From a virus: DNA of 31,147 bases. Shown here in pieces: positions 6,676 to 31,147 of the stretch. The notes under the pieces were generated by a model. That model was not told where the DNA came from. It searched no databases and was given only the letters and a program-made list of their open reading frames with translations. The position numbers were made by a program, and so were the translations under genes. The stretch lies in IMG/VR virus record IMGVR_UViG_3300006921_000076, positions 1 through 31,147 of that record. The stretch is one strand, 5' to 3'. The first letter of the stretch is position 1. Each line of letters opens with the position of its first letter.

Positions 6676-8175
6676 TTACGCTGTTTGCCAGTCAATCCCT
6701 TTTATTAATCTTTTACCGAGGGAAACAAGCGTTGCATCTTGGTAGGTATGATACGGAGAGTATGAACCTTTATTGGCATAATAAAAGCCATCTAATATAT
6801 CATCGTGCTTTCCTCTAGGAAAAAGAAGCAATTCATCAATAAAATCTAGTTGTTCTTCCATAATATGAACTTTATGCTTAGCAAATAGAGGTTGAAGTGA
6901 TTCTAAGCGATGTGATTTACTTGTTCTTGGATTTTCTTTAATATTTAATCCCGCAATAAACAAATTCTCATCTTTACTTCGTTTTATTACATATTCTCGT
7001 AACATTTCTTGATAACCAACAGATTCTATCCTTGTTTTTTCAGAGCGATATAATTTGAAGTTATCTACAATTGCTTCAGCAAGATTTAAGGGAGTAGCGT
7101 GTTTTCTATAGTACGGAAGAGCATATCTATTTTCATCTTCGTCTATAGCCATATTAAATATTACAGAATAGTCAGCGCCTTGTTTTACACTTGATGCTGG
7201 GTCTACCCCTGTAAATACATTAACTGCTTTTATTTCATCAACCTTATTTCCATTTCGTGTTAGAATGTGTAAATAGCTTTTTCCCCCTTTACGAAAGAAT
7301 TTTCCTGTATAGTATTGAAAATCATCTTTTTTAAACAATTGATCTTCGTCCCCTACAATCTCACACATAAATTCTCTATAGAACACAGACAACCTATTAA
7401 TCGATTCTAATTCTTCTTTTTTCTGTATTAATTTTTTTATACTCCACCATTCTTCCCATAAAGCTTTGCCATTATCAATATCGGGTTTAAAGGTCATATT
7501 TAACCACCCTTTCATCACTTGTAGGGTTTCAACCAAGCATCTTTGATGTTGAGGAGTACCAATAATAATTATTCTACCTTTGTTTGGGTCAACCGATGGA
7601 ACTGCTGATTGTAATAGCCATCTTAAATTTGACTCCATTGCTTCAGCAGTTTTGGTATTATTCTCATCTTCAGGGTCATCTACAATAATAAGCGTAGGTC
7701 TTTGGTTTCCAACTTTGATACCTCTTAACTGCTGACCAGTACCTTTACAAATTATCATAGAACCATCTTTAAGTTCGATTTCAGCTTTTGCCCAACTTTT
7801 TGCGCTATGACTTCCCCAATAACCAAACAATGACCTAAAGGGTTCTGAATAATCCATTGTATCTTTTAATAAGCCTAATAACTTAACTGCATGGTCTTGC
7901 GTTCTAGATACAAGTACAATTAGTTTTTTACCTTCCCCAAACATTAAATGATACAAGGGGAATACACCTCCTACAATTGAAGACTTAGCGTGTCCACGAG
8001 GAGCAACAATATTTATCTGTTTTTTTGAGTTATCTACTAATTGTTCCGCAATCTTATAATGAAAGTCAGGAGAATCAGATGAGAACATCTGAGGCATACA
8101 CACTTTCCCAAACAAAATCATATCTTGCTTGAGTTTAGCGTATATTGCTTTTTTTTCTTTAGTAATCTTTTCCAA
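6676..8175 (-). CDS. terL: Terminase large subunit (packaging ATPase-nuclease)
   Basis: The 499-residue packaging motor shows an ATPase Walker A variant APRGHAKS (residues 58-65), a Walker B LIIVDD at 162-167 followed by the catalytic acid in DPEDE, and a C-terminal RNase H-like nuclease with TGVDPASS (D325), a second acid around D335 and HDDILDG (D458, D459, D462). The P-R-G-H-x-K-S form of Walker A recalls T7/gp19-type and related terminases. The start is a TTG at 8175, chosen because the frame is closed by a TAG 15 bases upstream. It lies inside the 3' end of a 52-residue ORF, so translation is probably coupled. Confidence 0.93.
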   Translation of the reverse strand: MEKITKEKKAIYAKLKQDMILFGKVCMPQMFSSDSPDFHYKIAEQLVDNSKKQINIVAPRGHAKSSIVGGVFPLYHLMFGEGKKLIVLVSRTQDHAVKLLGLLKDTMDYSEPFRSLFGYWGSHSAKSWAKAEIELKDGSMIICKGTGQQLRGIKVGNQRPTLIIVDDPEDENNTKTAEAMESNLRWLLQSAVPSVDPNKGRIIIIGTPQHQRCLVETLQVMKGWLNMTFKPDIDNGKALWEEWWSIKKLIQKKEELESINRLSVFYREFMCEIVGDEDQLFKKDDFQYYTGKFFRKGGKSYLHILTRNGNKVDEIKAVNVFTGVDPASSVKQGADYSVIFNMAIDEDENRYALPYYRKHATPLNLAEAIVDNFKLYRSEKTRIESVGYQEMLREYVIKRSKDENLFIAGLNIKENPRTSKSHRLESLQPLFAKHKVHIMEEQLDFIDELLLFPRGKHDDILDGFYYANKGSYSPYHTYQDATLVSLGKRLIKGIDWQTA

Positions 8176-9529: not shown

Positions 9530-9931
9530 ATGTCAACAAATGAAATACAATCAAAGTTCGAAATCATTCTACAGAAAGACAAAGAAGATATCATCTTGTC
9601 TGATACTATAGATAAAGTACCTACAGATGAATTGATTGAGAAGTGCGTCAAAGCTGATTCTTGTACCATATTCCTTGACGATGCTACTGATGTAGTTGCT
9701 AAGAACGAGGCTTGGGCAAGATTGAGTCAGTTTAGAGATATGCTTGATAAGGTAGCCAATGCCACAGAAGAGCCTAAGCTAGTATTCAAAGGTTCTATCA
9801 GAGAAAGCAATGGTGTATCTGAACGTAAGGGTATATCTAGAGAATGGCGCATGGTGAAATTGTATAAAGGCTTAAGCTCTGGCAATGATAGCCAAGCAAT
9901 GTTAGATAAGCTTAGCAGTCTCATCGTTTAG
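9530..9931 (+). CDS. Unknown 133-residue protein
   Basis: The ATG at 9530 is preceded by AAGGAG, and the protein (MSTNEIQSKFEIILQKDKED...) is acidic and helical with no membrane segment. Residues about 85-118 carry a basic patch (FKGSIRESNGVSERKGISREWRMVKLYKGL), which could contact nucleic acid. A terminator hairpin follows 15 bases after the stop, so it may be a single-gene transcript. That makes it a candidate for lysogenic or very early expression. I do not recognise a family. Confidence 0.7.
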   Translation: MSTNEIQSKFEIILQKDKEDIILSDTIDKVPTDELIEKCVKADSCTIFLDDATDVVAKNEAWARLSQFRDMLDKVANATEEPKLVFKGSIRESNGVSERKGISREWRMVKLYKGLSSGNDSQAMLDKLSSLIV

Positions 9932-9946
9932 GTAGTCAGTTCCATA

Positions 9947-9971
9947 GGGTAGTCATCGTGGCTACCCTTTT
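9947..9971 (+). terminator. Rho-independent terminator
   Basis: GGGTAG (9947-9952) and CTACCC (9962-9967) form a six-pair GC-containing stem followed immediately by TTTT, just after the stop at 9931. Confidence 0.65.
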
Positions 9972-9977
9972 AAATCC

Positions 9978-10003
9978 CTGCAATTAAAAATCGCAGACTT
10001 TTT
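9978..10003 (+). terminator. Second weaker terminator-like hairpin
   Basis: CTGCAATT and AATCGCAG form an eight-position stem with one A-C mismatch and a three-base loop, followed by AC and TTTTT. It lies just after the first terminator, and a tandem arrangement would tightly isolate what follows. Confidence 0.45.
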
Positions 10004-10032
10004 AACACACACTAATAAAAAGGAAAATAAAT

Positions 10033-10185
10033 ATGTTTTCAAACCTAATAATATCACCTGAGTTCTATCATTTTACCAAAGAGAAAGACAACAACACCGT
10101 AGAAGTCCCCAAGAAAGATAATGACGGTAATCTTATCTCTCAACACCTAGCATTTAAAATAGCAATGAGGAAATGCTTGTGCTAG
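10033..10185 (+). CDS. 50-residue unknown protein
   Basis: A short ORF starts at the ATG at 10033 (MFSNLIISPEFYHFTKEKDNN...) with an AAAAAGGAAAAT ribosome binding site, and ends with a Cys-x-Cys (KCLC). Charged and polar in the middle, no membrane segment. It is the last well-supported ORF before the large structured RNA. A good ribosome site supports it; function unknown. Confidence 0.5.
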   Translation: MFSNLIISPEFYHFTKEKDNNTVEVPKKDNDGNLISQHLAFKIAMRKCLC

Positions 10186-10259
10186 AGGATATTTGTTTAA
10201 CACTCCTCCCGTATCTTTTCATGACAGCAGTTGCACTTGATGCATATATGAACGATTAG
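10173..10259 (+). CDS. Possible 28-residue hydrophobic peptide
   Basis: An ORF overlapping the end of the 50-residue gene reads MLVLEDICLTLLPYLFMTAVALDAY.... Most of it is hydrophobic and could span a membrane once. A GAGG lies very close before the ATG, too close for ideal spacing. Translation is uncertain. Confidence 0.3.
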   Translation: MLVLEDICLTLLPYLFMTAVALDAYMND

Positions 10260-10271
10260 ATATTATACCAA

Positions 10272-10980
10272 GGGCAATCACTGGACTTCGCAGTTGTGGT
10301 TGCCCAAATCTTTAATGTAAATATTCGGAGAATGTAGAGTTAGGTCAGAACAGGCACACTGAGGTGTGAACCGATGGTGACCAGATTATGTTAATAATTA
10401 AACTATCCCACATGGCTGGTGCTATGTATCGTAGAGATAATAGTCTTAATTAATAATCTTGCTTGAAAGAATAGCTTTGCTCCCTTACCCTCGTTTGAAG
10501 TCGAACAGAATACAGTATAGCCTAAGAAATAGGACTGTTAGCATTCTCCGATGCAGTAAATCTTTTTTGTATGTAAATCAATTAATAACAGTATAAACAA
10601 TAATATCCCATTGGGGAACTAATTAATACTATGACGATAGGGCGGTATAAAATCAGCCAACTTGTTCCCCATAATAAGCCTATCATATCTCCTGCGACTT
10701 TATTTAGTTATAGTAACTTGTTTAAAGCGTATACAGTTAAGATTAAATGATAGGCTAAAATTGTTATAACAGACGCTGGGATGGACTAGGCGAGCATAAG
10801 AGTCGAGACTTATCGAAACGTGGATATTGAGATCCCGTCACCACGAACATCCCAGAAGATTTAAATGTTAGCTAACGGGATGAGTTTACGAGATTAAAAC
10901 TCGTGGTTTGATTTAGCAGAGCTTATCAAATAGATCAAATAAGTTAAGGCGTTGCAAGACGTAACTGTAAAACTCATCCC
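10272..10980 (+). ncRNA. Large multi-domain structured non-coding RNA (GOLLD/ROOL size class)
   Basis: About 700 bases with no convincing ORF on either strand but with six consecutive inverted-repeat domains. D1: GGGCAATCAC (10272-10281) with GTGGTTGCCC (10296-10305). D2: CGGAGAATG (10326-10334) closes with CATTCTCCG (10542-10550) around at least three arms: 10343-10382, 10383-10459 and 10512-10538. D3: GGGGAAC (10613-10619) with GTTCCCC (10664-10670), enclosing a CTAT-GACG-ATAG hairpin. D4: AGCCTATCA (10677-10685) with TGATAGGCT (10748-10756). D5: CTGGGATG (10776-10783) with CATCCCAG (10848-10855), enclosing CGTGG/CCACG. D6: GGGATGAGTTTAC (10877-10889) with 10967-10980. An A-rich ribosome binding site follows directly. 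Size, phage context and multi-branched layout resemble the ornate phage RNAs GOLLD and ROOL, but family membership cannot be decided by eye. Exact ends are unknown. Confidence 0.72.
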
Positions 10981-11009
10981 TTAAATTTAATAAAAAAGGA
11001 GTATAAAAT

Positions 11010-11225
11010 ATGGATTCATATGAAATAGATAGATTTATAGAAGAACATGATCGTGATAGAGATGCACATTTTTATGAAGAAATTGATGTTCTAAAAAAAA
11101 AGATAAAAGATGTTAAAAAGTTAATAATGGAAGTGAATGAATACTTTAATAAAAAACCTATAAATACTTCTATATCTAATAAACTTTTTGACATAGAAAC
11201 TATAGTAACTAAAAAAGAGGAATAA
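11010..11225 (+). CDS. 71-residue charged coiled-coil protein
   Basis: The ATG at 11010 follows AAAAAAGGAG right after the structured RNA. The protein (MDSYEIDRFIEEHDRDRD...) is highly charged and helical, with a likely coiled coil over residues 20-45 (FYEEIDVLKKKIKDVKKLIMEV). Its stop overlaps the ATG of the next gene (TAATG). No family recognised. Its place immediately 3' of the RNA raises the possibility that it is linked to it. Confidence 0.65.
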   Translation: MDSYEIDRFIEEHDRDRDAHFYEEIDVLKKKIKDVKKLIMEVNEYFNKKPINTSISNKLFDIETIVTKKEE

Positions 11226-16283: not shown

Positions 16284-17123
16284 ATGGAAAAAGAACAAAA
16301 CCCTTATCAGATATTACGAAATGAAGAATATAAAAAGTTCGTTGAAAGCAAAGGTAATGCACGATTTAGTGCTGATTATATATCTTGGGCAGTAGCTTGG
16401 GATAAATTTCAAAAGAACTTTCAATATTGTAAATATAAATCTCGTGAATATGATATTGAAATAGCTGGGAACAAATTAAGAGTTCCTTACATGGTATTAC
16501 CTAATCAAACTGCAATGGTTAAAGTTGATTTATATTGGGAAACTTTCGATGGCGATGAACATACTCATACTGAAGAATTAGCTGTTCGTGACCATGCAAT
16601 GAAAGCAGTTGTTGACCCTAGTTCAGCTCAAGTAGAAAATGCAACTAGACGTTGTGTTGCTAAAGCAATATCAATGGCTACTGGATTTGGTATTGAATTA
16701 TGGTTTGGTGAAGACCTAAAAGACATGGACAATGTTGAAACTCACATTACAGGAAATACTCCCAAAGTTGGTATGATTACTCCTGCGCAATCTAGAAAGT
16801 TAGATGAATTAATGAGAGATAAAAATTGTACTGAAAATGACAAAGCTATGTTAAAAGAAATAAAAGATAGGCAGTTCGATCAAGTTACTGAAGAAGCTGC
16901 AATAGTAATAATTAACGATGTTAAGGAAGGCATTAAAAATAATAAACCAATAACAAATACTTATAAAACAAGGTTACTTGGTATGATTAATGAACTTCCA
17001 AAGTCTGTTGAAGACACAAAAAGAGCAGAGTATAAAAGCTTTGTTAATAAAGTACCAAAATTCAAACTAGCGAATAAGTTTGAAATGGAAACCCTTAAAC
17101 CTAAACTGGAGATTGGATTATAA
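16284..17123 (+). CDS. DUF1071 single-strand annealing recombinase (Sak3/Rad52-like)
   Basis: The 279-residue protein (MEKEQNPYQILRNEEYKKF...) matches the DUF1071 pattern: ISWAVAWDKF at about residues 30-40, a beta sheet with NKLRVPYMVLPNQTAMVKV, then the conserved DHAMKAVVDPSSAQVENATRRCVAKAISMATGFGIELW at about 105-145. DUF1071 proteins are phage single-strand annealing proteins that pair complementary DNA, working with an SSB and a nuclease. Here the next gene is an SSB candidate and a PD-(D/E)xK nuclease lies downstream, consistent with a recombination module. The C-terminal half beyond residue 160 is a variable linker with helices. AAAGGA precedes the start. Confidence 0.82.
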   Translation: MEKEQNPYQILRNEEYKKFVESKGNARFSADYISWAVAWDKFQKNFQYCKYKSREYDIEIAGNKLRVPYMVLPNQTAMVKVDLYWETFDGDEHTHTEELAVRDHAMKAVVDPSSAQVENATRRCVAKAISMATGFGIELWFGEDLKDMDNVETHITGNTPKVGMITPAQSRKLDELMRDKNCTENDKAMLKEIKDRQFDQVTEEAAIVIINDVKEGIKNNKPITNTYKTRLLGMINELPKSVEDTKRAEYKSFVNKVPKFKLANKFEMETLKPKLEIGL

Positions 17124-22242: not shown

Positions 22243-22427
22243 TTTAGCATAGAAGCGGCATTATAGTTACTATAAAACTTGGCTTGATATTCACAAGCTT
22301 CATGTAGTTTATTTGCTACTTTTCTGCTTTTTGTTCTAGTATCTATTATTACAATTTTACCATCTACTATTTTTCTATAATAAATAGTACCTTGTGCATC
22401 TTTGTATAGATATTTTTTTAGTGTCAT
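22239..22427 (-). CDS. Free-standing integrase arm-binding-domain-like protein, possible directionality factor
   Basis: This 62-residue protein starts in an ATGA overlap with the integrase stop, so the two are co-translated. Its sequence YLYKDAQGTIYYRKIVDGKIVI...TRTKSRKVANKLHEACE lines up with the integrase's own N-terminus (MYKNGKNYYTSIQVDGKRI...LRTSDKKEAKILERKL): the YK, YY, VDGK, T and K-(V/E)-A positions match. Such three-stranded sheet plus helix domains bind arm-type att sites. It has no catalytic region. It may act as an excision or directionality factor by competing for arm sites. That role is inference. Confidence 0.55.
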   Translation of the reverse strand: MTLKKYLYKDAQGTIYYRKIVDGKIVIIDTRTKSRKVANKLHEACEYQAKFYSNYNAASMLN

Positions 22428-23299
22428 ATTTTAAACTCCTTTACTTGTACAGGTAATAATGGAGCATAGTGCTTTTCTGTTATACGCACACTCTTATGCC
22501 CCAATAGTTTGCTTAGGTCATATATATCTACACCATTTAAAAGGCAGTTTAAACCAAAAGTTCTGCGAAGATCATGGAATCTAGCATCTTTAATTCCAAG
22601 TCTTCTGACTTCTAGTTTAAAACCTTTTGTAATGTCATCATCAGTATAGTTCCATGCACCATAGTGCTTTTCTGCCTGAGAGTTTAACTTCACCATTCGT
22701 TTTCCCATCTTACCATCAACCCACATATATCCATCTTCTTTAGATATAATAGTAATCAGTTCATGTCTCCTTGCTCCAGTATAATAAGCAAAATTCACAA
22801 ACTGCCTAAAATTTCTTAATAGTTTACTTTTATAATTAACAATATGTCTTGTTCTTTTAAGAATACTATTTAATTCTTCTTTACTAAAAACCCTAGACCT
22901 ACCTGCAACTTCCCATATCTTATACGTTTTATAATTGCATCTGTAATGTTTATTACACCAATTGTAAAAAGCATTAATATGTCGTTTATAAGAATGTTCT
23001 GTTGCTTCAGCTACATTAACAAACTTATCTGCTCTTGGCATTATACTATATAATATATAATGGTAGGTTCTTTTAGTGTTTGGAGTTTTAATAGCTAAGA
23101 ACTTTTTGATTAAAGTCCTTTCATCTGGCGCATTAGGTCTATCATCATAATTACCACTAACAAGTTGAGCATAAATCTGACGCTTTAGTTTACGTTCAAG
23201 AATCTTTGCTTCTTTTTTATCGCTAGTACGTAAAGACTTTGTTATACGCTTACCATCTACTTGAATAGATGTATAATAGTTTTTCCCATTCTTGTACAA
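22424..23299 (-). CDS. int: Tyrosine-family site-specific integrase
   Basis: This 291-residue recombinase has an N-terminal arm-binding domain (about 1-50), a core-binding domain (about 55-130) and a C-terminal catalytic domain with R177 (TGARRHEL), H242-x-x-R245 (FHDLRRTF), H268 (LLGHKSVRITEKHY) and nucleophile Y278. It integrates the phage at an attB. The start is taken as TTG at 23299, since upstream in-frame codons show no ATG before a stop; a weak start may keep expression low. The candidate attP lies about 36 bases upstream of the gene. Confidence 0.92.
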   Translation of the reverse strand: MYKNGKNYYTSIQVDGKRITKSLRTSDKKEAKILERKLKRQIYAQLVSGNYDDRPNAPDERTLIKKFLAIKTPNTKRTYHYILYSIMPRADKFVNVAEATEHSYKRHINAFYNWCNKHYRCNYKTYKIWEVAGRSRVFSKEELNSILKRTRHIVNYKSKLLRNFRQFVNFAYYTGARRHELITIISKEDGYMWVDGKMGKRMVKLNSQAEKHYGAWNYTDDDITKGFKLEVRRLGIKDARFHDLRRTFGLNCLLNGVDIYDLSKLLGHKSVRITEKHYAPLLPVQVKEFKI

Positions 23300-23801: not shown

Positions 23802-24964
23802 TAAAATGGTAAATCTGATTTATAAGGTATTGTCGTTTTTTTAGCAGTACCTTTAAAAACAACATCTCTAGTAAGAGCGTCACCTATTTCTCTTTGAAGA
23901 ATAATTGGAATATTTCTTTTTGCTTTACTATATAAAGTTCTAGCCAAGTTTGGGTTTTTATATATTTTTGACAATAACTCTAATGTACTATTCTCTCCGT
24001 AAAGATTATCAAACATTGTTTTTTTTACATTTCTATTTAATCCAAAATCCCAATCATCATAATAATGATGTTTTTTAACAATTTTATTTCCTTGTTTTGT
24101 TTTATCTATTAATCCATACTCTCCAAATAAAGCGTGATAATTTCCATCAGCCCTTCTAGATACATTTTTAAAATAATCACCTGATTTTTTATAATGATAA
24201 TATTCCTTACCATCTTCTGTGTGTTTCCCAAACTTATTCCACAATCTATCTAATGGAGACTGATGATCTCTTATTGTACGTTTCATTTCTTGTACAGTGT
24301 CTAATTTATTAATACCGCTATGTGATAAATCTAATTCAGAAAGAGTCTTTTTAGCCGCTCTATACTTATGCTCACCAACTGGGTCAAGTATTCTATCGTA
24401 ATCTCTATTTGGCTTACCTAATCCAAATTTTTTTCTCCAAGCGAATAATCTATCATTCCCAACATCAGCTGACATTCTATATTGAGGCATATCTTTTAAA
24501 ACAGCGTCTTTAAATACTTCCTTATTAGTTAATGTTCTTTTTATTGCATCCCATTTACTACTGTATGCAATTGGTTCTACAGAATTAGCAATAAGCCTTC
24601 CAATAGGCGTACCATAAGTCTTATTTCCAATTTTAACGCCACTAACAGCCATTTTTGCGCCTTTTCCAATCCCATATGGGTCTGTTATATATGATAATGT
24701 ATTACCAAGGTCTTTTTCTTTAGTAGGAGTACCTCCATATTTACCACTAGGTAGTAATCCAAATACAGTGTCATCTACCCCTTTATATAAGCCTTTTAAA
24801 ACACCAATTGGTCCTTCATCAGGCAAAGCATCACCAATCTTATCAATTAAGTTAGGTTTATATTGAGAAATGCTTCCTTGATTGTAATTTGGTTGACCAT
24901 CGGGCAGTAAATTAAAATCTACTCTAGTATTATCTGACTTTGTTGTTTTAAAGTTCTTCGACAT
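23801..24964 (-). CDS. 387-residue unknown protein, likely virion or ejection-linked
   Basis: This protein (MSKNFKTTKSDNTRVDFNLLP...) overlaps the end of the giant gene by 17 bases. Residues about 30-125 are Gly- and Pro-rich with GVLKGLYKGVDDTVFGLLPSGKYGG and GIGKGAKMAVSG, typical of membrane-active or internal virion proteins. The C-terminal half is basic and Tyr-rich (YYHYKKSGDYF, HHYYDDWDFGLNRN). No enzyme motif is evident. Because it directly follows the giant protein, which seems to be virion-associated, packaging in the particle is plausible. Confidence 0.6.
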   Translation of the reverse strand: MSKNFKTTKSDNTRVDFNLLPDGQPNYNQGSISQYKPNLIDKIGDALPDEGPIGVLKGLYKGVDDTVFGLLPSGKYGGTPTKEKDLGNTLSYITDPYGIGKGAKMAVSGVKIGNKTYGTPIGRLIANSVEPIAYSSKWDAIKRTLTNKEVFKDAVLKDMPQYRMSADVGNDRLFAWRKKFGLGKPNRDYDRILDPVGEHKYRAAKKTLSELDLSHSGINKLDTVQEMKRTIRDHQSPLDRLWNKFGKHTEDGKEYYHYKKSGDYFKNVSRRADGNYHALFGEYGLIDKTKQGNKIVKKHHYYDDWDFGLNRNVKKTMFDNLYGENSTLELLSKIYKNPNLARTLYSKAKRNIPIILQREIGDALTRDVVFKGTAKKTTIPYKSDLPF

Positions 24965-27900
24965 CTTCTACTTCTTCGTTTTCTTTTTTAGATTTTTTAC
25001 GTAATTGACCTAACCTATGTATTGGTAGTCCAAATAAGTTTTCTAACCACATTTCAGGTACATCATATGTCCTTACTACACTTCTAGCAAGTCTACCAAA
25101 TGGAGCCATTGCCCAAACATGGTAGTCTAAAAATGGTTCCCAATCATTATTAATAATTGCTTTTAAAGGTGCTAATGCATAGCGCATAGATGGACCAGTA
25201 ACAACAGATAAAGGTGCCATTGCAGGATGAGGCCATTGATTAAAAAATGCACGTTCTCGTTGCTTCTCATCTCCAAATAACCAATCAGCAGTATCTTGAG
25301 CATATGACATTGGAGGTGGTAAAGCTGAATCAAATAATGAGGAAACAAATATATTCGCTAAGGCAAACATATACATATCCATTGTGAAGATTCGTTGCAT
25401 CCTCCTACCTGGGGCTGTATCCATACTAAAGCCATATTTATTTGCTCGTTGATATGCTAATCTTCTAAAACGAATAGAGTTCCAAGCAAATGGCATAAAA
25501 CGAGTTAACATCTTACCTGCAGCAGTTCTAGAAAAAGCGGGTCTAGCACTTGAATGATACAAGAACTGAGTACCCTCTACGCCCTTAACTGCTAGTTTTA
25601 ATATATAAGGATTATCTGCTCTAAGGTTTGGTATTACTTGACTTAGTACTTCATAAGAATTTAAATAATGAGCAAAGAAAGAGTCTCTACGTAGCATACG
25701 CTCAGAGTATCTCATAAACCAAGCTCCTCCATCAACTATAGCTTTATTTACTCCATGCTTTTTAGCTATGTCATATAAAGATTGATCTGACAAATTCCAG
25801 TCTTTTTTTAATTCACTAATAGCATTAGATAAAAAGTTTTTCATCTTCTTGCCACGAAATCCACGCTCTAATGATGCTTCTGAAACGATAAATGACTCTA
25901 GCGCACCTGATTCTTCAGCAAATCTATTAGACCACATAGATACGTTATCAGGAGTTATCTCTACACCATCTGCTAATTTTGAACCTTTAAATATATTGTA
26001 AAGATATGCATTGTCTTTTGCTCTTACCCAATTGCGTAATCCAGCTTGTGATATTGTATTTGTGTTACCACCTAATAGGTTACCCATCATTGTTTTAGGA
26101 TGAGATAGCAAAGATATAAGTGACCATTTAGCTTCAAATGCTCCTACTTTTTGCATCAAGTCTCTTAATACTCTTTGTCTTGCATTCTTATCTTTAGGTA
26201 GTTCAACTAGCTTTGGAATAATACCATCTTCAAAAGAAGGTAATTTAGGAGCTTCTTCACTACCTAGTTTTTTAGCTACTTTTTCTAAAAAGTTTGCCCA
26301 CACTTGGTCACTAAGCCAATAATAAGGAGTCTTTTTAATTTTTTTAAGTTGCTCGTTTCTACGTACTCTTTCTTTAGCATCTTTAAGCATATCAATTTGT
26401 TCAATTCCAATTTCAGTATCAGGAATCTTTTCAAGACTTTTAATAGTTTCTTGAACTCTTTTTAATTGCTCTTTATTTAAAGATAGTTGTTCAGGGTCAA
26501 ATACAGTAGGATAACCCATTACATCCCTAGCATAGTTTTTCATATAGTTTTCCCAATCAGACATTTTATCTTTGTCTTTTAAAGGATTCTTTTTAGAAAA
26601 CTTTTTAATTGCATCATTAGAAGCAATAGCCAGTGTGTTTTTAAATAAACTATTTATCCATTGCCCTGTATAATTTTCAACTACTTCATAATCTAAAGAA
26701 AACCCAGGCATTGGAGTTTCACCTCTTGACCTACCACTCCCTGGGCGACTATTAAATCCTATTTTATCAAGGATTTCTTTATCTGCATGATTTCGCATTA
26801 GCCATTCCATTGCAGCTTCACTTGCTCCGCCATCTTCTGATGCTCTAGTTCCAAGAAATTGTTCAAACTCTCTTTCTTGAATAGCAAGTAGCCTATCTAT
26901 TACTTTTTCTTTTGAAAGTTCTCCTCTCTTATAAAGCTTTAATTCTTTAGCAATCTTCTTTAAAAATCTTTGTTTTATTCTTGTAGTAGAATGAGTTTTT
27001 GTATGACTAGTATCAATTTCAGTAAGCATTTTATTTGCTTCATTCTTTAATGATTCCATTTGCTCATCTAAGAACTGACGAACTCTTTTACGACTACCTT
27101 TAGTTGCCTTATGCATCATCTGAGGCCAATAGTCAAACGTATCTCTACCTACATATTGATTACCAACATAGCCTATAGGTTTAAAAGCAGTAGAACGCCA
27201 AGTCATTACACCCTCTTTATTGGTAAAAAATCGTTTACGCCATGCTTGTCTAAATTTCTTAGCTTGAGCTGAATGAGGTGCATATCCTTGCGCTTCTATT
27301 TGTGCTTCTACAATAACTTCATATTGTATTCTATTTAATAACTCAGTTGAAAGAGAAGTGTTTTTAAGCAATCTTCTAATAGTTTTAGTATTACCAGTAA
27401 CCATTGGCTCAATTAATCTTTTTTGAATACGTTTCATATTTAGTTGACCACTAGGTAAATACTCTACTATTTCATCGTATTTTTTATACAAGTGATCTTC
27501 GTCTATGTCTCTCCAATCAAAATACTCTTTTGTAGAAATCCATTTATTATAAAAGTTTTCAAATGTTTCACCATGTTTACTTTGAATCCATCTTATAATT
27601 TCTTCACCTGTTTTTTCTACAATCTTACCACCTTCGGTTATTTTAAATTTTTTATTTATTATAGCATCATAATCTGCTTTATTGTCTTTCCATATTTCTT
27701 CATAAAGTTTTCTTCTTTCTGTTTTGGCTATGTCACTACCAGCCTTACCACCACCTGAATTATTTAACATTTCAGCAATAGCTACACGATGTAAAGTATC
27801 CCACTCAATTGTACCTTCTTTTCTTCCAAGTATTTGGTCTTTTAATTCGTAGCTTCGTTGTAATTCTTCTTGAGACAATTCTTTAAAAGTATTTTCAAGT

Positions 27901-30900
27901 TGATAGATTTGATTAAAAGATGTACTCATATACTGCATAGTACTAAATGGAACTTTTACATCTATAACGCCACCTTTACCGCTAGCATCTATATAAGGAA
28001 GTTTAACTTTATACATCTGAGACATATCAAATGTTAATTGTTGTTCTCCTACTCGCTCAGGGAACATGGAATAATAAATCTTTTTTAATCTAGGACTATC
28101 TGAGCCTTGTACTCTTAAATTTCGTATAAACTTTTGAAAATTACGTATATCAGCATAAGTAGCTTTACTAATAGCTTTTGATACACCATAAGCTTCATTC
28201 TGATATAAAGCATACCATTTTTCTAAATTCAATAAAGCTTCTTGAGGTAGTGCCTTAAAATCCTCTTTTAACATTCTAAGCACCTTAGGCATATCCTTAG
28301 GCACATTAGGTAATGATATTTTATCTGTATCTAAATCTGAAAATTTACCATCACTGAATTTTTCAAACTTTAACTCTACTGCTCTATCTAATTGAGTTTT
28401 GCCTTGCGCTTCAATTGGGGACACTTCTTCAGGAATTATCTTTCTACCATGATTATCAACAATGTCTTTTACAGGAACATCATCTTTCATCATATTTACA
28501 GTCTCATTAAAGCCTCGTATAAAATCTTTTTTAGCACGTTCAGGTATTGTTTTTGTCTCCATAGGAAATTTATGGAAAGATGTTTTGTTATAAGTCTTAG
28601 ACCAATTATCAAGTCTATCTTTAATGTACTCTATATGATTTTCATCTCGCTTAGCTTCAGGCTTTGCTAATTCAGCTTCAAGTTCTTTTTGAACCATATT
28701 TTTAGTTTGCTGACTAGATTTTGGTCTATACCATATAGAGCCTAAAAAGTAATCATAGAAATAGTCTAAAGCGACTTTCCTGTCAATATCATATTTCTTT
28801 GCTTGTCTATTAATCTCTCTTTTAAGCGATTTTATATTTTTTTCAGTTTGATCTACAGTAATGTTAGTAGGCCTTTTTTCACCATCTTTTGTACTTAATA
28901 AAGAATCTCTATGCCTAGCTTTTAAACGAGTAGCTTCCTCTTGAATAAAGGCAAAGAAGTCTCTCTTATATTCACCATTACCCGCATCTTCCATTGCTTT
29001 ATCAAGCTTTTCACCTTTTTCAATAGCTTTTATCCAACTATACATATCCATATAGTCATTAAACATCATTTTAGCTTCTTTTAAAGGAGCCATAGGCTTT
29101 ACAATACCCTCACTTAAAATAGTCTCATAAAACTTTTGAAGTTTTGGATGAAGACTCTTATCGTTTCTTTGAGCTAAGGCTTTATGTAGACTCCAATCAA
29201 TTTCTTTTATATCTGGATTTCGTTTATAAAAAGCATCTCTTTCAATTTTTAATGCATCAAAATCAGTTTCAAAGTATTGTGGTGTAATTTTTAATTTTGT
29301 TCTACCAAGATATAAACGAGTATCTGAATCATTAATTAATCTGTTTACCTTTTTAATTAACTCTCGATGTTCCTTACTGCCTTTAACGTGGTCAAGTTTT
29401 ATTTCATTTTGACCCATGCGATTTGCCATCCAAAACAATGAGTTCATTCTACTATTTGGATTGGAAGCATTTCGTAAGGCAGTTTGGACTTCTTCTATAG
29501 ACCATTTTTTTCCAGTCTCATAGTTTCTACCATACATCTTCTCATTAATTTCAAACATATCTCCATAAGACGTATCTCTAAAATCTTTGTATTTAAAGTC
29601 TCTTTTTTTACCTTTTGAGTCTATGTATTCAATTGATGTAAATGCTTTTTGAAATAAAAGTTCTCTCATAGAAGTTGGACTCATAATGTTCCAATAATTA
29701 GAACTGTCAGCAGTTCGTGAAGAAGCTTCTACTGCAAAGACTCTATAACCATCATCTTTTTCTAAGTGTGCTACATTTGTTTTTAACACTACACTACCAA
29801 CCACTTTGCCTCGCTTAGTAACAGGCAGTTTAACAGTACCATTATTGTGTGTGATAACATCAGAAACAAGATAGTTTAAAAAAGTCTTAGCATTAACGAT
29901 CTGTCCCATGCCTTGCTTACCTTGATAAGCAGATTTACCTACTCTTCTTAAAGCTGATGGTAAATATTGACTAACTCTACTTTCAAAGTATTCTTGAGTT
30001 CCCATATCGGGATAATCACTTTCAAAGTCTTTATTAAACTTCTCATCTTTATTTTTCCTTGCTCTCCACTCACCTTTAACATTTTTATGAAGTTCGTTTT
30101 CATTCTTTTTAACTTGTTTCATAAAGTCTTTAGGTAAGCCTTGATAAACAAATACTTTATCTCCATCAACGTCAGCACCATCAATATAAAAATGGTCTTT
30201 TTGGCTCATATAAACGCCATGGTTAGCTTGTTTACCTTTTTCACCAATAAAACCATTGAAACGCAATATTCTAGTACCTGATACCGCAGGAGATGGAACT
30301 CTCATTAAAGCCATGCTCATATCTTCTTCTAACGCACTTGCTTTTTCTAATGCAACTTGAGATTCTTTTTTATTTTTAGAACGCTTAACAATATCCATTG
30401 CTTTTTGATATTCGCTCCACATTTCTCCAAGACTGCTTTTAACACCATTACTATTAATAACTCGCATTTTCTCCATGCTATGTCCAAGCTTAAAAGTACC
30501 TTCTGTAATAGCTCCATATTTTAATTGAGAGATAGGGTCGTTACCAGCTACCCAAGCTGATGCTGATGTTTCCCACACAGGATACGTGTACTTTTGCTTA
30601 CGATAGCGCAAAGCCATCTGTTGAAACATTTCAGGTTCAAACAAATAAATATTTGGGTCGTAATCTGAATACTTAGCCCATCTTTGTAATCGAGAAATGT
30701 ATTCGTTTAATTCTATAAACTCATTTTGCTCTCCAAAAGCATCTTCTCTTTCTTTAACGCCAGTCTCATTAACCATATGCTTAACAAGTTCTTTCCAAAG
30801 AGGATGTTTTGTATTATTTAAAATGTGAACAAATTCAGCATCACCAATGTCCCCAATTTTAAATTTATCGGGTCTTTTTGCATTATCATTTTTAGAAAGC

Positions 30901-31147
30901 TCTGTTACGTATTTATTAAACGGGTCTTTACCTTCAATATTTGGAGCAAAGACTTTATTCATTAACGAGTCATAAGCTTCTTTAGTTACTTGTAATTCAT
31001 TTAATAATACATGAAACTGCTTTTTAATTGTTTGAGCATCTAAAGCATGAGAATCTTCTTTAACCCCATAATCTATTCGTAAATCTTCAACTCTAATTTT
31101 AGTAGTTGGTGGTTTATTTAGATAGTTGCCTTTTTTATCTACAAAGC
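24948..31147 (-). CDS. Giant polyvalent protein with RNA-polymerase-like double-psi-barrel motif (runs off right edge)
   Basis: At least 2,065 residues are visible and the frame is open to the last base, so the real start is outside; the ATG at 30962 is internal. Near it, RVPSP is followed about 40 residues later by IDGADVDGDKVFV (D-x-D-G-D at 30159-30173), the metal-binding arrangement of two-barrel RNA polymerases; the RxP to DxDGD spacing is close to that of cellular beta-prime. Downstream GMGQIVNA (29889-29912) and VEASSRTADS (about 29705-29735) resemble following conserved blocks of YonO/QDE-1-type enzymes. The long helical middle looks polyvalent, with LLSHPKT...GNLLGGN near 26070-26110. 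The C-terminus has a hydrophobic span (MYMFALANIFVSSLF, near 25330-25380) like internal ejection proteins. RNA polymerase activity is inference. Confidence 0.62.
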   Translation of the reverse strand, partial: FVDKKGNYLNKPPTTKIRVEDLRIDYGVKEDSHALDAQTIKKQFHVLLNELQVTKEAYDSLMNKVFAPNIEGKDPFNKYVTELSKNDNAKRPDKFKIGDIGDAEFVHILNNTKHPLWKELVKHMVNETGVKEREDAFGEQNEFIELNEYISRLQRWAKYSDYDPNIYLFEPEMFQQMALRYRKQKYTYPVWETSASAWVAGNDPISQLKYGAITEGTFKLGHSMEKMRVINSNGVKSSLGEMWSEYQKAMDIVKRSKNKKESQVALEKASALEEDMSMALMRVPSPAVSGTRILRFNGFIGEKGKQANHGVYMSQKDHFYIDGADVDGDKVFVYQGLPKDFMKQVKKNENELHKNVKGEWRARKNKDEKFNKDFESDYPDMGTQEYFESRVSQYLPSALRRVGKSAYQGKQGMGQIVNAKTFLNYLVSDVITHNNGTVKLPVTKRGKVVGSVVLKTNVAHLEKDDGYRVFAVEASSRTADSSNYWNIMSPTSMRELLFQKAFTSIEYIDSKGKKRDFKYKDFRDTSYGDMFEINEKMYGRNYETGKKWSIEEVQTALRNASNPNSRMNSLFWMANRMGQNEIKLDHVKGSKEHRELIKKVNRLINDSDTRLYLGRTKLKITPQYFETDFDALKIERDAFYKRNPDIKEIDWSLHKALAQRNDKSLHPKLQKFYETILSEGIVKPMAPLKEAKMMFNDYMDMYSWIKAIEKGEKLDKAMEDAGNGEYKRDFFAFIQEEATRLKARHRDSLLSTKDGEKRPTNITVDQTEKNIKSLKREINRQAKKYDIDRKVALDYFYDYFLGSIWYRPKSSQQTKNMVQKELEAELAKPEAKRDENHIEYIKDRLDNWSKTYNKTSFHKFPMETKTIPERAKKDFIRGFNETVNMMKDDVPVKDIVDNHGRKIIPEEVSPIEAQGKTQLDRAVELKFEKFSDGKFSDLDTDKISLPNVPKDMPKVLRMLKEDFKALPQEALLNLEKWYALYQNEAYGVSKAISKATYADIRNFQKFIRNLRVQGSDSPRLKKIYYSMFPERVGEQQLTFDMSQMYKVKLPYIDASGKGGVIDVKVPFSTMQYMSTSFNQIYQLENTFKELSQEELQRSYELKDQILGRKEGTIEWDTLHRVAIAEMLNNSGGGKAGSDIAKTERRKLYEEIWKDNKADYDAIINKKFKITEGGKIVEKTGEEIIRWIQSKHGETFENFYNKWISTKEYFDWRDIDEDHLYKKYDEIVEYLPSGQLNMKRIQKRLIEPMVTGNTKTIRRLLKNTSLSTELLNRIQYEVIVEAQIEAQGYAPHSAQAKKFRQAWRKRFFTNKEGVMTWRSTAFKPIGYVGNQYVGRDTFDYWPQMMHKATKGSRKRVRQFLDEQMESLKNEANKMLTEIDTSHTKTHSTTRIKQRFLKKIAKELKLYKRGELSKEKVIDRLLAIQEREFEQFLGTRASEDGGASEAAMEWLMRNHADKEILDKIGFNSRPGSGRSRGETPMPGFSLDYEVVENYTGQWINSLFKNTLAIASNDAIKKFSKKNPLKDKDKMSDWENYMKNYARDVMGYPTVFDPEQLSLNKEQLKRVQETIKSLEKIPDTEIGIEQIDMLKDAKERVRRNEQLKKIKKTPYYWLSDQVWANFLEKVAKKLGSEEAPKLPSFEDGIIPKLVELPKDKNARQRVLRDLMQKVGAFEAKWSLISLLSHPKTMMGNLLGGNTNTISQAGLRNWVRAKDNAYLYNIFKGSKLADGVEITPDNVSMWSNRFAEESGALESFIVSEASLERGFRGKKMKNFLSNAISELKKDWNLSDQSLYDIAKKHGVNKAIVDGGAWFMRYSERMLRRDSFFAHYLNSYEVLSQVIPNLRADNPYILKLAVKGVEGTQFLYHSSARPAFSRTAAGKMLTRFMPFAWNSIRFRRLAYQRANKYGFSMDTAPGRRMQRIFTMDMYMFALANIFVSSLFDSALPPPMSYAQDTADWLFGDEKQRERAFFNQWPHPAMAPLSVVTGPSMRYALAPLKAIINNDWEPFLDYHVWAMAPFGRLARSVVRTYDVPEMWLENLFGLPIHRLGQLRKKSKKENEEVEDVEEL

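Follow-up and report, generated by a model that had tools for sequence, protein, structure and literature searches.

What is encoded by an ORF-poor intergenic stretch of a marine phage genome in which an original prediction had seen a single large structured non-coding RNA, one of the GOLLD and ROOL kind or a new family? The stretch (positions 10272–10980) lies in the IMG/VR virus record IMGVR_UViG_3300006921_000076, of which positions 1–31,147 (31,147 bases) were analysed and are here called the window. We conclude that the region is very probably a + strand array of structured RNA modules that are autonomous and are exchanged, reordered and grafted while each core is kept (Table 1).

Six structured modules in one intergenic region

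All six closed domains of the original prediction are present (M1–M6), and the longest ORF in 10272–10980 encodes 45 aa from a TTG start, in line with the claim that no convincing ORF runs through the region. Two small overlapping ORFs precede it (10033–10185, 50 aa; 10173–10259, 28 aa). Because the 28-aa ORF has a similar counterpart in a close relative, L004, we placed the start of the array only after position 10259.

Table 1. Coordinates of the array, its modules and landmark genes in the window.
Feature	Position	Strand	Description
Array region	10259..11009	+	Whole intergenic region between the 28-aa ORF and the ORF at 11010; sense to neighbouring genes
M1	10272..10305	+	34-nt hairpin GGGCAATCAC..GTGGTTGCCC, 10 bp outer stem; 5′ end of the array; z −3.9
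M2	10325..10551	+	227-nt domain; exact 10-bp arms 10325–10334/10542–10551
M3	10612..10671	+	Variable outer stem (8 bp), conserved TTAATACTRTGACGAYAGGGCGG..TCAGCCAACTT interior
M4	10677..10756	+	Variable P1 (10 bp, exact), conserved bulged core CATATCTCCTGCGACT / AGCGTATACAGTTAAGATTAAATG, exchangeable P2 tip
M5	10776..10855	+	Three-way-junction-like; covarying P1 and CGTGG/CCACG helix; 8 bp closing stem
M6	10877..10980	+	Exact closing stem of 11 bp enclosing three hairpins; final array module
Terminase large subunit	6676..8175	−	Landmark of the conserved locus; PHROG 38, E 8.8e-78; divergent from the array
Sak-type single-strand annealing protein	16284..17123	+	Pfam SSAP_Sak, E 8.4e-19; putative role in exchange

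Using exact inverted repeats as a measure (≥8 bp, ≥4 G/C, span up to 260), we found five in the region, while shuffled sequences contained 0.34 on average and three at most, and none of 2,000 shuffles reached five. The pairing is thus denser than chance, as had been predicted. The minimum free energy of the region was also low (−195.1, compared with −158.7 for shuffles, s.d. 7.0; z = −5.2). However, the reverse strand folded well too (z = −5.0), as did a 731-base coding stretch of ParB used as a control (z = −3.4), and we therefore gave folding energy little weight. At the same locus in relatives, z-scores were mixed and overlapped those of coding controls, which makes them too noisy as an array detector. 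The real evidence for structure is covariation; energy alone is weak.

Covariation in the recurrent modules

Among 29 sequences of M4, the covariation score was 0.269 (0.104 when shuffled and ≤0.055 when slid), 95.1% of cells were paired (≤36% when slid) and double changes were found at 12 pairs. M5 was paired in 100% of cells, with double changes at 6 pairs (19 sequences), and M6 was also 100% paired, with double changes at 4 pairs, 11 G·U cells and zero A·C cells (8 sequences). An H-type pseudoknot module, which is adjacent to M4 elsewhere and absent from the window, was 99.1% paired with one doubly changed pair per helix. Across M4, M5, M6 and this pseudoknot module of other phages, 95–100% of cells were paired, with the slid control at ≤57%. 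M3 was found in four further loci (L090, L093, L150 and L176), and inspection of the 5 sequences revealed outer and inner stems that were altered yet still paired. On the basis of these sequence comparisons, covariation in M4, M5 and M6 across related phage contigs, together with the inspected changes in M3, supports the prediction that the region encodes structured non-coding RNA.

Diverse homologues are lacking for M1 and M2. A 44-nt stretch at M1 is identical in L004, and no other relative of M1 was found; M2 had no homologue among the related loci compared. M2 had been described as a 225-base multi-branched junction (10326–10550). Its closing helix held up; without this stem the interior folded no better than shuffles (z = −0.9), so that only the closing helix speaks for such a junction.

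On the + strand, G·U cells outnumbered A·C cells by 36 to 10, an excess pointing to + as the encoding strand. This one-strand excess bears on whether the element could work as DNA, that is, as folded single-stranded DNA for recombination or replication, or as hairpin promoters like those of the N4 virion polymerase. Inverted repeats fold as DNA too, both strands here fold well and the terminase is distantly N4-like. Besides the G·U excess, the sense orientation to the genes argues against a DNA-level element, as do the size of the modules (34–227 nt), their multi-part cores and the pseudoknot found in relatives, all unlike short hairpin promoters; we regard a role as DNA as very improbable.

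Modules are shuffled, replaced and grafted

Relatives were reached through the terminase and portal proteins, while a search via the neighbouring 133-aa protein yielded none. They are IMG/VR contigs and look marine in origin. By blastn, only parts of the region were shared, and these parts differed from phage to phage. When 32 M4-bearing regions were folded locally and clustered, recurring domains fell into 28 clusters, in varied orders; a few of these clusters hold coding sequence and are not to be counted as modules. In the motif map of all loci, M4 was followed by M5, M6, mod2, m14, m18, m19, m26 or m4h, and M6 was preceded by M5, M4, M3, m14 or mod1. Domains 15, 19 and 23 changed sides of M4 between phages, preceding it in one and following it in another, and no module, M4 included, was common to all arrays. 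Each phage carries one array of up to about ten diverse modules, which lie on one strand and are separated by short AT-rich linkers.

Replacement of single modules was evident in L004, in which the flanking DNA is 84–94% identical to that of the window. L004 retains M1, the M4 core and M6, while unrelated hairpins replace M2, M3 and M5, and the M4 tip differs. Tips are also grafted between modules: the tip hairpin GATTCATTGAAATTATTCAAC was found in P2 of M4 in L093, L098 and L100, and inside an unrelated hairpin of L104 and L120, and a second tip, ATCAGTT..TTAACAGGAG, is grafted in like manner. Over 80 nt, the M4 of L120 is 96% identical to that of the window despite a terminase that is only 31% identical, and modules therefore move between distant phages. 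The exact M4 21-mer was found in 33 viral contigs, and the M5 pattern was matched in 28 contigs. An assembly chimaera was rejected, as dozens of contigs of separate metagenomic origin share modules.

Nested insertions and differing neighbours would also be expected of selfish hairpin elements that insert into each other, comparable to mitochondrial double-hairpin elements and GC clusters. The mobile hairpins of mitochondria (PMC4478555) are likewise small units that shuffle and insert into one another, but they occur in many dispersed copies, whereas the units of the array are single-copy, confined to one locus and subject to compensatory evolution. M4, M5 and M6 are each single in the records that have them rather than scattered (many records being fragments), and conserved cores with compensatory stem changes are as expected under functional selection. 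A selfish origin is accordingly quite improbable.

The array occupies a fixed position

M4 was present once per record in 28 of 28 records. In all 21 records with both M4 and a terminase, M4 lay 2.4–5.7 kb upstream of the terminase, on the opposite strand and pointing away from it, with terminases down to ~30% identity (distances were computed from match tables and measured from the terminase start). This placement, upstream of the terminase and in the opposite orientation, is thus conserved across divergent uncultured marine phages. Wherever M5 or M6 gave a clear match, it was single, and both were divergent from the terminase at 2.4–7.3 kb, with one case near 14 kb; where a match ran across the end of a contig, the record was taken to be permuted. 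The models used (R1–R3) were built from many of the records later searched, so that recovery was expected and the copy number and position are the informative results. As many records are fragments, the single-copy counts are lower bounds.

Two of the records, L029 (56,959 bases) and L007 (88,986 bases), contain two different terminase genes each, with identities to that of the window of 77% and 33%, and of 77% and 67%, respectively. These contigs may join two phages.

The genes adjoining the array are not constant, and a ParB homologue was found in 1 of 28 records. In the window, a 71-aa ORF (11010–11225) directly follows the array, starting 29 nt after the end of M6. It is not a constant downstream gene: it is missing in L004, in which the next gene adjoins M6. 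That no partner gene is constant speaks against a simple riboswitch or leader.

Cis-acting leader elements of the operon can also be envisaged, such as antitermination RNAs of the HK022 put type, mRNA stabilizers or insulators. The put RNA works on early transcripts in cis and on its own (PMC9378689), and the array shares with it the setting of a structured RNA in a phage operon, possibly working via the host machinery. The array also lies in sense orientation among mostly co-directed genes, in an operon divergent from the structural genes, and the short gap between M6 and the ORF at 11010 would suit a leader. In contrast to the cis-acting put, however, the array comprises diverse modules at no fixed distance to a promoter or gene, and neither the spacing to a start codon nor the gene downstream is constant for any module. 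The presence in an array of several unrelated modules with strongly conserved cores calls for more than insulation, and we consider a cis-acting leader unlikely.

The array is not a catalogued RNA family

Searching Rfam 15 at gathering thresholds gave no match in the window. At up to E = 5, the interval 9900–11100 gave only weak, chance-like matches, with GOLLD, ROOL and OLE absent among them, so that membership of these families, of which the original prediction had offered GOLLD and ROOL as one possibility, is not supported. The same database returned one tRNA and nothing else for seventeen plus eleven related loci. No tRNA or tmRNA was detected in the window, and scanning 29 loci revealed one tRNA-Met gene near the related arrays. 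Isolate phages and plasmids searched with the region and two related arrays gave nothing above chance, and the M4 21-mer had zero matches in 85,000 bacterial and archaeal genomes. Three Lachnospiraceae matches of the M5 pattern were set aside as being at about chance level (about one was expected by our estimate, and the three may be one gene), as were four matches from a 16-mer scan (L123, L125, L126 and L127), which were chance hits in unrelated contigs. Hammerhead-like letters in the M5 of L129 were not conserved in other M5 members, and a hammerhead reading of that module was dropped for this reason.

The part of the prediction that called the RNA new holds in spirit; instead of one new family, the shuffled array comprises several. 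A single large RNA family, as stated, is not supported because the domains recur independently with other neighbours, are reordered and, when close relatives are compared, are individually replaced.

A single large multi-domain RNA could still work as a unit, as a scaffold or cage like GOLLD or ROOL with exchangeable peripheral domains. The consecutive, closely linked modules on one strand and the single array per phage agree with this, as does the frame M1..M4..M6, which is constant in the window and L004 while the slots between vary, and a palindrome in M4, GUAUAC, could pair between copies. Against it stand the permuted order and the want of any module common to all arrays, together with the missing Rfam match to GOLLD, ROOL and OLE and the near absence of tRNAs nearby. 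Overall, we consider a single working unit an unlikely explanation.

Comparison with known systems sharpens these differences. The array resembles GOLLD in being phage-borne, large (about 700–1000 nt), rich in helices and ORF-less, with marine examples and with constant and variable regions within one RNA (features of GOLLD and ROOL from the GOLLD cryo-EM study, PMC12286853). It differs in having no covariance-model match and in sitting outside the tRNA neighbourhood. The universally conserved 3′ region of GOLLD, with its variable 5′ region, has no counterpart here, M6 giving a strong score in only 6 of the 71 records searched, and the domains of the array are permuted and replaced independently. 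With ROOL it shares a phage-borne, ornate RNA of unknown function; ROOL members have one consistent secondary structure, whereas the array locus has none, and again no covariance-model match was obtained. Nor did OLE give a covariance-model match. The H-type pseudoknot in the arrays of other phages is of a size similar to the pseudoknot repeats of type III toxin–antitoxin RNAs; unlike those repeats, the module forms no tandem repeat, no toxin gene was seen with it, and it is absent from the window.

A possible host-directed role

The sense orientation amid mostly co-directed genes suggests that transcription of the rightward operon includes the array. That cores are constant and stems variable, that cassettes are exchanged and that the locus is single and fixed suggests a set of RNAs, each folding independently, that target the host. 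Each module would fold alone and act in trans by binding a host target, either protein or RNA, which may belong to a defence or shut-off pathway; that the modules act in trans on host factors is a tentative proposal, which we think rather doubtful as it stands. Module swapping might let phages alter their repertoire, as already happens with small anti-defence genes, and could proceed through short-homology recombination, for which the phage-encoded Sak annealing protein is a plausible agent. Taken together, a modular array, operon transcription, host-directed action in trans and swapping by recombination form a reading whose chances we put at somewhat short of even. Marine phages may draw on a common pool of several dozen RNA domains, each phage building its own tandem and nested chain at one set place in the operon and deploying this chain as a replaceable group of RNAs that act in trans against host factors, an RNA counterpart of an anti-defence gene island; we advance this last picture speculatively.

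Domain shuffling is well known for proteins. To our knowledge, limited to the open-access literature and Rfam 15, with an earlier description elsewhere being possible, no natural system has been reported that exchanges, permutes and grafts cassettes of structured RNA at a single locus. Every module that recurs represents a new RNA family, with covariance models available for M4, M5 and M6, and probing and pull-down could start from the conserved cores, that of M4 foremost. If the modules do act on host factors, an RNA toolbox of phages would be opened in ocean viruses.

Minor features of the locus

A scan for sigma-70 promoters gave no excess over shuffles. Right after the 133-aa ORF, the hairpin GGGTAGTCATCGTGGCTACCC followed by TTTT (9947–9972) is terminator-like and also found in L004. 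The arrays of L108 and L114 begin with a related hairpin, GGGTAGT..GTGGTCTACC, whose loop carries a long insert in L114. Further downstream on the − strand, a 2004-aa ORF (24948–30962) has no Pfam match, and a gene of the phage integrase family (22424–23299; Pfam PF00589) suggests, from sequence, a temperate lifestyle or ancestry. The grafted tip motif ATCAGTT..TTAACAGGAG (L101, L077, L100 and L135) contains a Shine–Dalgarno-like AGGAG, and the M4 core contains CUCCU; contact with the ribosome via either motif is conceivable.
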